Assembly (NCBI RefSeq): GCF_017161405.1 | Contig: NZ_CP071051.1 | Coordinates: forward strand, 1,054,001-1,118,000 | Source of the DNA: Leucobacter sp. CX169 | GTDB lineage: Bacteria; Actinomycetota; Actinomycetes; Actinomycetales; Microbacteriaceae | Direction: 5' to 3' | DNA: 64,000 nucleotides | Part shown: positions 9,309-13,138 of the stretch, piece by piece | Layout: each line of letters opens with the position of its first letter | How positions within the stretch are numbered: position 1 is the first letter of the stretch | Translations under genes and position numbers: made by a program | Notes under the pieces: model-generated | Databases searched by the model: none | Told to the model about the DNA's origin: nothing | The model's input: only the letters and a program-made list of their open reading frames with translations

Positions 9309-9785
9309 GTGAGCGCAGAGTTCAAACCGACAGGATCCCCGCCGGACACTCGTGCGCCGAGGCAGGGGTGGAAGATGCACTCCGTCGGCGGCGTGCTCCG
9401 CATGTACCTGTACCTACTGCCCCTGTCGCTCGCAGCGACGTACTATCTGCTGATCGCCGATCGCGTGACTATCGAGACGCCTCGCGACCTCATGCAGGCC
9501 GGGTTTGGCTGGCCGTTTAACTGGGTCACGCAAGACCTTTCGCGCTACCAGCCGTCCTCGTACCCCACAACGATCGACTTCAATTTCGTGCGCGCGTGGG
9601 ACGACCCGATCGCGACGAACTACGACTGGCTGATGCTCGCGGTCAACGCGCTGATCGTGGGAATCGGGGTGACAGCCGCCCTCTACGCGATCGTGTACGT
9701 CGCCAAGCTGATTGGCTCTCGGAAGCGGCCGGACGCAGAGGCTCCGCCCGCGGGAGAAGGTCGCCCTGCTAACCTATCGCGGTGA
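9309..9785 (+). CDS. Membrane protein of unknown function, two TM segments
   Basis: 158 aa, not recognised. A hydrophobic helix spans about residues 29-48 (VLRMYLYLLPLSLAATYYLL), then a predicted extracellular stretch of about 70 residues rich in aromatic residues (GFGWPFNWVTQDLSRYQPSSYP), and a second helix at about 110-136 (LMLAVNALIVGIGVTAALYAIVYV). The tail is charged and Pro-rich. The GTG start is chosen from the -10 spacing. Its stop overlaps the next start by 4 nt (GTGA), so the two membrane proteins are co-translated and likely work together. Confidence 0.7.
   Translation: MSAEFKPTGSPPDTRAPRQGWKMHSVGGVLRMYLYLLPLSLAATYYLLIADRVTIETPRDLMQAGFGWPFNWVTQDLSRYQPSSYPTTIDFNFVRAWDDPIATNYDWLMLAVNALIVGIGVTAALYAIVYVAKLIGSRKRPDAEAPPAGEGRPANLSR
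9770..9775 (+). promoter_or_regulatory. Internal -10 hexamer TAACCT for the second membrane-protein gene
   Basis: TAACCT, inside the 3' end of the upstream gene, is 6 nt before GTG 9782. It could provide an independent leaderless transcript. Confidence 0.35.
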
Positions 9786-10894
9786 ATGGACACGAGGGCC
9801 TCGATGACAGGCTCGCACAATTTCGTCGAGAGTGGCCCAGGTCAGTAGGTTGGGCCGAGGTTCGAGCCGCCGATCCAAAGGTCTTTCGCTCGGCCGCGCA
9901 GGGCGCCGCACTGCTCGTTCCCGCCGTCGCCTCGACACTCCTCTTCACCAGCCTGTCGTTTGAGTTCCCGGTCGTAATCCAGCTACCGAGCTGGTTGATC
10001 GGGATTCACGGGTTCCTCACCGTCGTGCTCCTGTGGCTCTCGATCGGGCTCTGGATCTGGGCCTTCATCTTGCTCTCGCTTCCGGGCGACGCTCGGCGCG
10101 GCATCGCGATCGCGCGCTTCGCAAAGGAACGCGACCTCAGGTACTCCCGGTTCGGGTTTGCCCCCGAACGCATCGGGATCCTGCTCGCGGAGGGGCGAAC
10201 TCCCGCGCCGCCGCGTCCCGCCCGCCTGGTCGAGGCTGGCCAGGGAAACCCGTCGCTGTTCCGCGCGGGCTTCGCGCTGTGGGAGAGCGCGAACAGCAGG
10301 ATCCCGCCGCTACAGATTGCAATCGCCAGCTATAGCGGGGGCAAGAATGACCCGAAGGGGCCGCGCAACGGGTTTCGCTACATGGAGTTGGCCCTGCCGC
10401 GCCGTTTGCCGCACCTTATGATCGATGCCCGCGGAAACGGAAGCCTTCGACAGATGCTGCCGGGAACCCAGCGCCTGTCACTCGAGGGTGACTTCGACCG
10501 CTACTTCTCGGTGTACGTGCCGAGCGGGTACGAGCGGGACGCGCTCGAGCTGCTCACCCCGGACGTCATGGCGTGCCTCATCGACCACGGGAGGCGATGG
10601 GACGTGGAGATCGTTGACGATCGGCTGATTGTCGCGTCGCGGCGATTCCGGCGGGCATCTGACCGCGCCGAGTACACTGCGATGCTCTACTTCTCGGAGC
10701 TGTTCGGGGAGGAACTCGGCCACCAGGCCGACACGTACTCGGACCCGCGTGCGGCGCGCCCCCGCTCGCAGGTCGCGGCCGCGGGCACCCGGCTGAAGCG
10801 GCGTTCTACGGTGTGGGCGACGGCCGTGTTTGTGGGCATGGTCGGGCTCATGCTCCTGTTCCCGCACGTGCTGGGCTGGTTTCTCGACCGCTGA
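9782..10894 (+). CDS. Membrane protein of unknown function (DUF3137-like)
   Basis: 370 aa. Two membrane helices near residues 40-62 and 72-100 (GFLTVVLLWLSIGLWIWAF), a cytosolic domain of about 230 residues, and a C-terminal helix at about 347-366 (FVGMVGLMLLFPHVLGWFL). The soluble part contains FRYMELALPRRLPHLMIDA, LEGDFDRYFSVYVPSGYERDALELLTPDVM and WDVEIVDDRLIV; this order resembles the DUF3137 group but identity is uncertain. It overlaps the upstream gene by 4 nt. No catalytic motif is visible. It ends 31 bp from the convergent Clp_N-SRPBCC gene. Confidence 0.7.
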   Translation: MNGHEGLDDRLAQFRREWPRSVGWAEVRAADPKVFRSAAQGAALLVPAVASTLLFTSLSFEFPVVIQLPSWLIGIHGFLTVVLLWLSIGLWIWAFILLSLPGDARRGIAIARFAKERDLRYSRFGFAPERIGILLAEGRTPAPPRPARLVEAGQGNPSLFRAGFALWESANSRIPPLQIAIASYSGGKNDPKGPRNGFRYMELALPRRLPHLMIDARGNGSLRQMLPGTQRLSLEGDFDRYFSVYVPSGYERDALELLTPDVMACLIDHGRRWDVEIVDDRLIVASRRFRRASDRAEYTAMLYFSELFGEELGHQADTYSDPRAARPRSQVAAAGTRLKRRSTVWATAVFVGMVGLMLLFPHVLGWFLDR

Positions 10895-10925: not shown

Positions 10926-11921
10926 TCAGCGAAAGACCCGACTCATGCTGCTTCCGAGCTGCGACAGCTGCATCCAGATGGAGAAGCGGGCAAGTGGTCG
11001 CAGCAGCCAGCCGAGGAGTGACATTTGGCGCTCGGGATTGCGCACCCACTGCAGCTCGAGGCGCAAGTGGGCGCCGCCGGCAGCGGGCTCTAGCGCGATG
11101 GTGACCACCCGGGTGTTTGCCCGCACCGCGTCGGGATAGCTGAAACGCCAGACGATACGCGAGGGCCGTTCCTGTTCGACGAGTGCTACGAGTTGGCGCC
11201 GGTACTGTTTCGACGTGCGCAGGGGTCTGCCATCCGGTCGTTCTGTGCGGGCGAGCGCGAGAAAGTGGTCTCCGGTCTTCGGTGCGTGCCCCGTCGCTTC
11301 GGCCTCCACCCGGCCGATGCTCAGGTCCCACTCGGGAAGCCGCTCCGGGTCGGACACCAGCTCCCAGACCTTCTCGATCGGCGCCGGAACGAAGGTCTCG
11401 CTGGTGCCCGAGAGGCTCCCGCGGCGGCGGCGGATCGCCGGGGCTGGCGGGATGCGCTCGGCCTCGGCGAGTCGCGCTCGGACGAACTCGGACCCGACGC
11501 CGAGTCGGTGCAACACCGACTCGATGAGCCCGCTGGGCTCGTCGAGTAGAGCGCGCAGCACCGCGCCGGCGTCGCCCTGCTGCGTGCCGGCGGAGGCGCG
11601 GCGCAGGATCTCGATCGACGGGGCATCCCATTCGTAGCCGCCGGTCTCGTGGAACACGATCCGGCCCGGGGCAGGCGGCGCCTCAATCGATACCCCGATC
11701 GAGGCGAGCTGTGCGGCGTCCTGATTCTGCACCGCCTGCCGTGCGGAGTCGAGGGTGATTCCCAGCCCGCGCAGTACCTGGCCCGCGAGCTGCTCGTTCA
11801 CGACCAGCGCGAGGAAAAGGTGCTCGACGCGGGCGGTGCGCTGGCCGAGGCGGGAGGCCTCTTCCATGGCCGCGAGCGAGAGCGAGTGTGAGGTGGCCGC
11901 CGCGGCGGCGAACCCGCTCAC
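10926..11921 (-). CDS. Clp N-terminal-repeat protein fused to SRPBCC/START-like domain
   Basis: 331 aa. Residues 1-150 hold two Clp_N repeats (LSLAAMEEASRLGQRTARVEHLFLALV and VLRALLDEPSGLIESVLHRLG), the substrate/adaptor-binding module of ClpA/B/C, but there is no AAA+ ATPase. Residues about 175-320 form an SRPBCC helix-grip domain (FVPAPIEKVWELVSDPERLPEWDLSIGRVE ... VWRFSYPD), usually a hydrophobic-ligand pocket. It is translationally coupled (4-nt overlap) to the upstream small HTH gene. Possible role: ligand-responsive adaptor for Clp proteolysis, or a cofactor of the HTH regulator; both are inference. The domain calls are strong. Confidence 0.82.
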   Translation of the reverse strand: MSGFAAAAATSHSLSLAAMEEASRLGQRTARVEHLFLALVVNEQLAGQVLRGLGITLDSARQAVQNQDAAQLASIGVSIEAPPAPGRIVFHETGGYEWDAPSIEILRRASAGTQQGDAGAVLRALLDEPSGLIESVLHRLGVGSEFVRARLAEAERIPPAPAIRRRRGSLSGTSETFVPAPIEKVWELVSDPERLPEWDLSIGRVEAEATGHAPKTGDHFLALARTERPDGRPLRTSKQYRRQLVALVEQERPSRIVWRFSYPDAVRANTRVVTIALEPAAGGAHLRLELQWVRNPERQMSLLGWLLRPLARFSIWMQLSQLGSSMSRVFR

Positions 11922-12163
11922 CGTGCCCGCCCGCCGGCGGCGATGGACGGGTTCACCTTCCGGGCGAACTTCTTGTGCGCCGCCTGCCGTGACACCCCCA
12001 ACGCTTCCGCGATGCCTTGCCAGTTCATGCCCGCGCTGAGGCCGGCCTCGACCTGGGCGAGTTCGAGGCGCTCGGTCAGCGCTCGCAGCGAGGCGATCGC
12101 GCGCAGGCCGGCGCGCGGGTCGGAGGTGTCGGCGGCGACTGTCGCGATGTCGAGTGATTCCAT
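11918..12163 (-). CDS. Small helix-turn-helix protein
   Basis: 81 aa. A C-terminal HTH is clear: MNWQGIAEALGVSRQAAHKKFARKV (about residues 45-70), preceded by a helix ASLRALTERLELAQVEAGL that could dimerise. It is the first gene of a two-gene operon with the Clp_N-SRPBCC protein. A 16-bp dyad covers its own -10 region, suggesting autoregulation. It resembles the small HTH partners commonly found with Clp_N genes in Actinobacteria (from memory). Confidence 0.78.
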   Translation of the reverse strand: MESLDIATVAADTSDPRAGLRAIASLRALTERLELAQVEAGLSAGMNWQGIAEALGVSRQAAHKKFARKVNPSIAAGGRAR

Positions 12164-12166
12164 GCC

Positions 12167-12182
12167 GTCAACCTACGTTGAC
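12167..12182. promoter_or_regulatory. Dyad GTCAAC-N4-GTTGAC over the HTH-gene promoter
   Basis: Perfect 6-bp arms (12167-12172 and 12177-12182) cover the -10 hexamer; a third GTTGAC-like half overlaps the -35. Position and symmetry suggest an operator for the small HTH protein. Confidence 0.55.
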
Positions 12183-12199
12183 GGCTCCTGGCTTGTCAA
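12170..12199 (-). promoter_or_regulatory. Sigma-70-type promoter of the HTH/Clp_N-SRPBCC operon
   Basis: On the minus strand: perfect -35 TTGACA (12199-12194), 18-nt spacer, -10 TAGGTT (12175-12170), then 6 nt to the ATG at 12163, giving a leaderless transcript. It lies in the 3' end of the upstream DUF4031-HD gene. Confidence 0.65.
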
Positions 12200-13138
12200 C
12201 CTGGGTTGCTCGAGCTCGCCGACCTCCCGGGTGAGGTTCGCGCGGGCCCGCGCCTCCCACATCGCCTGTGCCGGTGGCGAGCGGTACACAAAGGGGCGGT
12301 CGAGATAACTGCGCAGGATCCGCGCGCGGCCCAGCCGGAAATCCTCGCTCGCGACGTGCGCGTACTCGGCTCGAACCGACGACGTGTACTCCGCGTATCG
12401 TGCGGCGGGGGAGGCGAAGATGGACAGGTCGGCGTCCAAGAGATGCACCGCTGCGGGGGGAGTCTCGGCCGGACCCGCCCCGGGGAGTGTGGCGATGATC
12501 AGCTCGCGCACCGGGACGACGGCACCCACCGGGAGCCCGAACCGTTCGAGAGCGTCCCCGGCGAACCGGGCGGACTCGGCCTCGTCCTGGTCGCCGACGC
12601 CCGAATAGACGGCGTCGTGAAACCACGCAGCGAGCAGAGTGATCGGCGTGATCGGCTCGCCCCGGGTGCGCAAGTGGTCGAGCGCGAGCAGCACCTCTTC
12701 GAGATGGCGGAGGTCGTGGTAGCTGCGGTGCGGCTCGTTCCAACGCTCGATGAGTTCAGCGCCGAGTCCCTGCCACCGTTCCGATTCGCCGACGGGGGCA
12801 TCGGGCCCGAGAGCGGGAAGCAGCGCGGCCCATTCCTCCCGCAAATAGGTCAGCCGGGCCCCTGGCCGAGCGGTCGCCCGGGCGACGTGTTTCACGCGCA
12901 GGCCCGAGTCGCGCAACACATGCACGACGTCTCGGCTGCTGACCGCCCTCGCACCCGACGCGACGGCACGATCGTAGATCGATGCGGGCACGTCGTAGTG
13001 GTCGAGATCGAAGCTGCGCCGGGGGAGACCGAGCGCCGCCGCGAACCGGTGCAACTCGGCGTAGCTCGCGTCAGAGACAAGGTGGCTCCAGATGGTGCCG
13101 TGCGCCGGCCACAGCGGTGGGTCGATGTAGATGGCCAT
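12173..13138 (-). CDS. DUF4031 domain protein with HD-type phosphohydrolase-like domain
   Basis: 321 aa. N-terminal DUF4031 module (residues 1-85): MAIYIDPPLWPAHGTIWSHL, FDLDHYDVPASIYDRAV, and VVHVLRDSGLRVKHVARA. C-terminal HD-like part (about 110-320): W(Q)GLGAELIERWNEPHRSYHD, HLEEVLLALD, LLAAWFHDAVYSG (the metal-binding HD), and LLDADLSIFASP. HD proteins of this type are metal-dependent hydrolases of unknown substrate. The start is ATG 13138 at the DUF4031 N-terminus; a GTG two codons upstream is also possible. Long inverted repeats lie in the divergent spacer upstream. Confidence 0.82.
   Translation of the reverse strand: MAIYIDPPLWPAHGTIWSHLVSDASYAELHRFAAALGLPRRSFDLDHYDVPASIYDRAVASGARAVSSRDVVHVLRDSGLRVKHVARATARPGARLTYLREEWAALLPALGPDAPVGESERWQGLGAELIERWNEPHRSYHDLRHLEEVLLALDHLRTRGEPITPITLLAAWFHDAVYSGVGDQDEAESARFAGDALERFGLPVGAVVPVRELIIATLPGAGPAETPPAAVHLLDADLSIFASPAARYAEYTSSVRAEYAHVASEDFRLGRARILRSYLDRPFVYRSPPAQAMWEARARANLTREVGELEQPRLTSQEPST

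Follow-up and report, generated by a model that had tools for sequence, protein, structure and literature searches.

The P0002-P0001 locus

The window, the whole stretch of 64,000 nucleotides from Leucobacter sp. CX169 that was analysed, carries on its reverse strand a small helix-turn-helix (HTH) gene, P0002, followed by a gene coding for a Clp_N-SRPBCC fusion protein, P0001. The features of the locus are the following (positions in the window; evidence in brackets):

10926..11921 (-): Clp_N-SRPBCC fusion gene P0001, 331 aa, GTG start (Pfam and AlphaFold)
11454..11921 (-): Clp_N (ClpC N-domain-like) part of P0001, residues 1-156 (Pfam, AlphaFold, alignment)
10929..11414 (-): SRPBCC/START helix-grip domain of P0001, residues 170-331 (Pfam Polyketide_cyc2/AHSA1, Foldseek)
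11918..12163 (-): HTH gene P0002, 81 aa (hhalign to the ClpC2 N-terminal domain, phmmer to RelI, AlphaFold model)
11966..12022 (-): helix-turn-helix of P0002, residues 48-66, WQGIAEALGVSRQAAHKKF (homologue alignment, model, hhalign)
11918..11921 (-): GTGA start/stop overlap of P0002 and P0001, 4 nt (sequence; -4 overlap in 72/77 named relatives)
12167..12182 (-): proximal operator, GTCAAC-n4-GTTGAC, 0 mismatches, over the -10 (sequence, GTCAACctacGTTGAC)
12195..12210 (-): distal operator, AGCAAC-n4-GTTGAC, 2 mismatches, over the -35, 28 bp upstream of the proximal one (sequence)
12194..12199 (-): predicted -35 element, TTGACA (promoter inspection)
12170..12175 (-): predicted -10 element, TAGGTT, 18-bp spacer, 6 nt before the ATG (promoter inspection)

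The original prediction saw in P0001 a Clp_N domain paired with a ligand-binding-type helix-grip domain and no ATPase, a description borne out by both profile searches and structure prediction. The protein matches Clp_N in two stretches (E = 3.4e-14) as well as Polyketide_cyc2 and AHSA1 (E = 4.5e-12 and 9.5e-9, respectively), all of them over the Pfam curated cut-offs. The AlphaFold model, for which 47 homologues were used as input, has a mean pLDDT of 93.9 and a pTM of 0.89. Its residues 3-155 form helices resembling the N-domain of ClpC, and residues 170-330 are made up of a strand, two helices, six strands and a long C-terminal helix. The helix-grip fold on which the prediction had been staked beforehand is thus present in the model, and both this fold and a curated profile match place the domain in the SRPBCC/helix-grip superfamily. 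Neither Pfam nor the model, which consists of the N-domain helices and the helix-grip domain only, revealed an AAA+ module. Structures retrieved by Foldseek include the PYR/PYL abscisic-acid receptors, MLL2253, CV1439 and DynU16; together with the fold, they imply a ligand-binding cavity in the SRPBCC domain. Another helix-grip ligand-binding protein of the SRPBCC/START group is MSMEG_5634 (PMC9014085). Unlike these proteins, the domain of P0001 is fused behind Clp_N and is predicted to be under ClpC2-type control. No description of a Clp_N-SRPBCC fusion was found in the open-access literature. In the genome of CX169, recognisable Clp_N domains were found in ClpC and P0001 only, and no ClpB-type Clp_N was found.

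The model of P0002 is all-helical (pLDDT 89.7), with a long helix followed by the HTH, most positions of which are invariant or nearly so among 60 homologues. When compared with the N-terminal HTH/four-helix domain of 11 fused ClpC2-type genes, the P0002 family gave an hhalign probability of 96.5% (E = 1e-9, 31% identity over 45 aa). Since a fold search with the HTH model retrieved nothing significant, it is on sequence profiles that P0002 is assigned as a homologue of the ClpC2 N-terminal domain. The P0001 family is only moderately similar to the Clp_N part of the same fused proteins (probability 49%, E = 1.7e-4), which suggests that Clp_N has diverged more than the HTH. The best PDB sequence match of P0002 is the antitoxin RelI (9sdc; phmmer E = 3.4e-4, residues 11-67), which, according to the authors of its structure, has an HTH region in common with ClpC2 (PMC13284704).

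The coupling of this 81-residue HTH gene to the fusion gene and the perfect dyad over the -10 of their promoter (12167-12182, 0 mismatches) had also been anticipated. Both are found in the sequence, and translational coupling through the GTGA overlap is probable. Three further elements had escaped the original prediction: the second operator copy at 12195-12210, the predicted leaderless start and the relationship with ClpC2. As the -10 lies only 6 nt from the ATG, the transcript is probably leaderless. The whole 2.94-Mb genome contains a single perfect copy of the operator, which points to a dedicated circuit; a wider regulon was sought with up to one mismatch, but this returned a single imperfect extra site, not above the reversed-pattern control. 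A DUF4031 gene (12173-13138, reverse strand) lies directly upstream, and the distal operator, together with most of the promoter, falls within its 3' end. Because it ends 9 nt from P0002, read-through into P0002 is possible. On the other side, at 9309-10894 of the forward strand, two overlapping membrane-protein-like genes without significant Pfam match converge with P0001.

Relationship with ClpC2 and the split HTH/Clp_N family

The features described above recall ClpC2 (Rv2667), the mycobacterial HTH-Clp_N autorepressor and cyclomarin sponge. This protein acts as a repressor of its own promoter by way of CGTCAAC-n5-GTTGACG, an operator often duplicated across the -35/-10 at 1-2 nt from the ORF, and the self-repression is relieved by cyclomarin (PMC10030653). 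The GTCAAC/GTTGAC half-site pair is common to both systems, in tandem copies over the -35 and -10 that adjoin the ATG in a leaderless layout, and both encode a Clp_N domain without ATPase and a homologous HTH. Nevertheless, ClpC2 is a single polypeptide, whereas here the HTH is on a separate chain and the two ORFs overlap by GTGA; its operator has a 5-bp centre instead of 4 bp; and it lacks the C-terminal SRPBCC domain of P0001. The P0002-P0001 pair therefore looks like a split, self-repressing and SRPBCC-extended relative of ClpC2. The autoregulation proposed for the locus is strongly implied by the operator it shares with ClpC2, whose autorepression was demonstrated experimentally (PMC10030653).

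Split HTH/Clp_N gene pairs with the GTCAAC/GTTGAC operator are widespread in Actinomycetes. P0002-like HTH sequences are present in 244 of the 395 genomes of the class; among the inspected loci, a Clp_N ORF follows the HTH in nearly all split cases, and the Clp_N-only partners that were scanned all match Pfam Clp_N (73/73). The operator was found with two mismatches or fewer in 165 of 180 split loci. The length of its centre cleanly separates the two forms: 306 sites in split loci have exactly 4 bp, and 24 sites in 12 fused ClpC2 loci have 5 bp (shuffled control, ~0.003 sites per locus per spacing). We found no paper naming the HTH and Clp_N-only pairs in the open-access literature. They share with P0002-P0001 the gene order, the n4 operator and, frequently, the start/stop overlap, but they have no SRPBCC domain and largely keep the canonical second repeat of Clp_N. 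They also fall on the other side of a branch (SH-aLRT 98) that separates the 39 SRPBCC-extended rows (39/39) from 72 others in an unrooted tree obtained by a quick search, so that the extended form appears as one clade. This form was found in 7 of the 99 genomes searched around CX169, CX169 included. In the named genome collection, the 78 loci are all Clp_N-SRPBCC, and 77 of them have an intact HTH neighbor and the operator, in line with the expectation that homologues would keep this neighbor. Their hosts include Leucobacter, Microbacterium, Arthrobacter, Brevibacterium, Glutamicibacter, Dermacoccus, Glycomyces, Corynebacterium, Micrococcus and Rothia. Thus, the architecture that had been called unusual is so in its SRPBCC extension, but not in the HTH and Clp_N pair itself, which is common and whose fused form is ClpC2. 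One contig labelled Vibrio cholerae (L184) bears an actinobacterial Clp_N-SRPBCC cassette, most likely through contamination or mislabelling.

Mobility of the cassette

Cassettes of the P0002-P0001 type (1.2-1.5 kb) move horizontally between actinobacterial families, because they can be up to 99.5% identical between families in which clpC is at 80%. The cassettes of Dermacoccus abyssi and Microbacterium ihumii are 99.5% identical (clpC, 79.8%), and those of a Corynebacterium sp. and Micrococcus lylae 88.3% (clpC, 72.1%). Several near-identical cassettes adjoin the ychF 3' end, within an array that ychF-tail repeats delimit; the CX169 copy is outside any such array. This 3' end carries an integron-like array of small modules (L142, L145, L147, L151, L153, L155, L163), namely a HigB-like toxin with an HTH, an AAA_33 kinase, a NUDIX protein, TetR with GNAT, and the Clp_N-SRPBCC pair, separated by ~45-bp repeats of the ychF tail (...GTGCCGGAACTCGGTGGAGTTCCGCTTCAACGTGTAG). 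The ychF-tail motif was detected in 5 of 150 genomes of Microbacteriaceae and in none with the reversed-pattern control. A phage or plasmid origin of the cassette was discarded, as P0001 had no match in the phage and plasmid collections. Beyond the pair itself, no conserved neighbor recurs reliably except the DUF4031 gene, which also adjoins the cassette in Leucobacter chinensis (L005/L186).

This mobility, the occasional proximity to HigB cassettes and the resemblance of P0002 to RelI could suggest a toxin-antitoxin-like pair, in which a RelI-related HTH antitoxin would be accompanied by an SRPBCC "toxin" comparable to the Rv0910 family. Yet, the similarity to that family is very weak (15 bits versus a cut-off of 100), the partner in CX169 is a Clp_N-SRPBCC protein and no RelS-like toxin is present at the locus, PADLOC has no match there, most relatives consist of Clp_N only without any toxin-like domain, and the fused form, ClpC2, is no toxin. 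The RelSI or Rv0909-Rv0910 type of explanation was accordingly rejected as highly improbable.

Clp_N residues and possible function

Clp_N is the N-domain of ClpC, the docking site for MecA, McsB, arginine-phosphorylated clients and peptides. This bears on the original prediction, which called it an adaptor-type domain and took P0001 for an adaptor under ligand control, one that would either bring P0002 or another regulator to ClpCP or protect such a regulator from it. The co-encoding and probable interaction of Clp_N with a regulator would agree with that idea. However, Clp_N receives adaptors instead of being one, so that a free copy would mimic ClpC and act as a sponge, decoy or competitor; profile searches of P0001 found the Clp_N and SRPBCC families only and no MecA/McsB-type adaptor domain; and ClpC2, the relative that has been characterised, is instead a competitor of ClpC1 (PMC10030653). 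The adaptor role was thus rejected on account of the receiving nature of Clp_N and is very unlikely.

The Clp_N part of the SRPBCC clade keeps the D/E-H motif of the first repeat (D/E33 in 47/47 and H34 in 43/47 aligned sequences), but the EH motif of the second repeat is degenerate, mostly replaced by Ala. The cyclomarin contacts of ClpC1 (F2, F80 and E89, corresponding to F96, F172 and E181 of ClpC2) are not conserved as such: in the clade, F2 is replaced by F/L/I and F80 aligns to W, and R10, K85 and E89 are lost. P0001 itself has F4, also hydrophobic, at the F2 site and W98 aligned to F80 and does not conserve E89, in a region where the alignment is gapped. Since these contacts are only partly kept and the second EH motif is replaced, a cyclomarin-type sponge role for P0001 is doubtful. 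A ClpC-mimicking sponge or decoy whose ligand is altered, or provided by the SRPBCC domain, seems more likely; the actual ligand may sit in the SRPBCC domain or be of another kind entirely. The clade has also gained a near-invariant motif, IVFHETxGYEW. This motif and the loss of canonical N-domain contacts could be explained if Clp_N no longer bound anything related to ClpC and merely served in co-repression, as the scaffold of an SRPBCC domain that senses a metabolite. Nevertheless, the only apparent target is the promoter of the pair, so that a pure sensor would regulate only itself, and we consider such a regulatory remnant unlikely.

DNA contact in ClpC2 has been ascribed to the Clp_N arginines R185/R189. 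They align to ClpC positions 93 and 97 and are arginine in all the fused ClpC2 sequences (11/11). The SRPBCC clade lacks the corresponding arginines, though its operator is conserved; the simplest reading is thus that the HTH chain P0002 would recognize the operator, and R185/R189 may nevertheless contribute to affinity in ClpC2. The analogy with ClpC2 and the conservation of the operator make repression of the pair by P0002 most likely. The fusion of both domains in ClpC2 indicates, as a "Rosetta stone", a joint action of the HTH and Clp_N chains.

On these grounds, we favor as reasonably probable that P0002-P0001 is an autorepressed two-gene ClpC2-like module, in which a ligand or client on P0001 relieves the repression and the induced P0001 serves as a sponge or decoy. 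P0002, presumably dimeric as is the N-terminal domain of ClpC2, would bind the two tandem operators that cover the -35 and -10 and so silence its own leaderless transcript. P0001, whose translation begins at the overlapping start codon, would partner P0002 and present a free Clp_N joined to a START-type hydrophobic pocket. Once it is occupied by a natural product, a lipid-like molecule or a misfolded or phosphorylated client, the P0002-P0001 complex would leave the operator, and the induced P0001 would soak up the inducer or compete with ClpC for whatever docks on its N-domain. Repression by P0002, its contact with P0001, ligand binding and the sponge or decoy outcome are all steps that we infer, as is the route of the signal from the ligand to an HTH on a chain separate from Clp_N.

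A related scenario would make P0001 a ClpC N-domain competitor induced by heat or proteotoxic stress, for which unfolded or arginine-phosphorylated clients would themselves be the inducer. ClpC2 is also heat-induced and may act as a holdase (PMC10030653), and the first-repeat D/E-H motif is kept in the clade, but such a client sponge leaves a conserved and confidently folded START-type domain unexplained and fits poorly with the lost EH motif of the second repeat. It appears not very likely.

Within the favored ligand-relieved ClpC2-like module, the behavior of a mobile cassette fits an accessory protective function, and the pair may be an inducible protection device. It is possible, if somewhat short of probable, that it represents a horizontally mobile actinobacterial cassette that protects its host and induces itself: a free ClpC N-domain would have acquired a START-type ligand pocket, so that a separate HTH repressor is gated by a small molecule, probably a natural product. 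The pair would then amount to ClpC2 divided into two chains and gated by a ligand, with the HTH chain, and not Clp_N, reading the ClpC2-type operator. ClpC1 is a target of antitubercular drugs, and the action of one drug directed against it is blunted by ClpC2; should split ClpC2-like modules with their own sensor domains prove common and mobile, ClpC-directed natural products would meet wider protection than the mycobacterial case suggests.

The SRPBCC clade makes it testable whether Clp_N (R185/R189) or the HTH binds the ClpC2-type operator, and the n4 versus n5 centre provides a simple test of specificity. Genomes with a fused ClpC2 (L042, L043) also hold a split HTH and Clp_N pair, which may correspond to the mycobacterial ClpC3.
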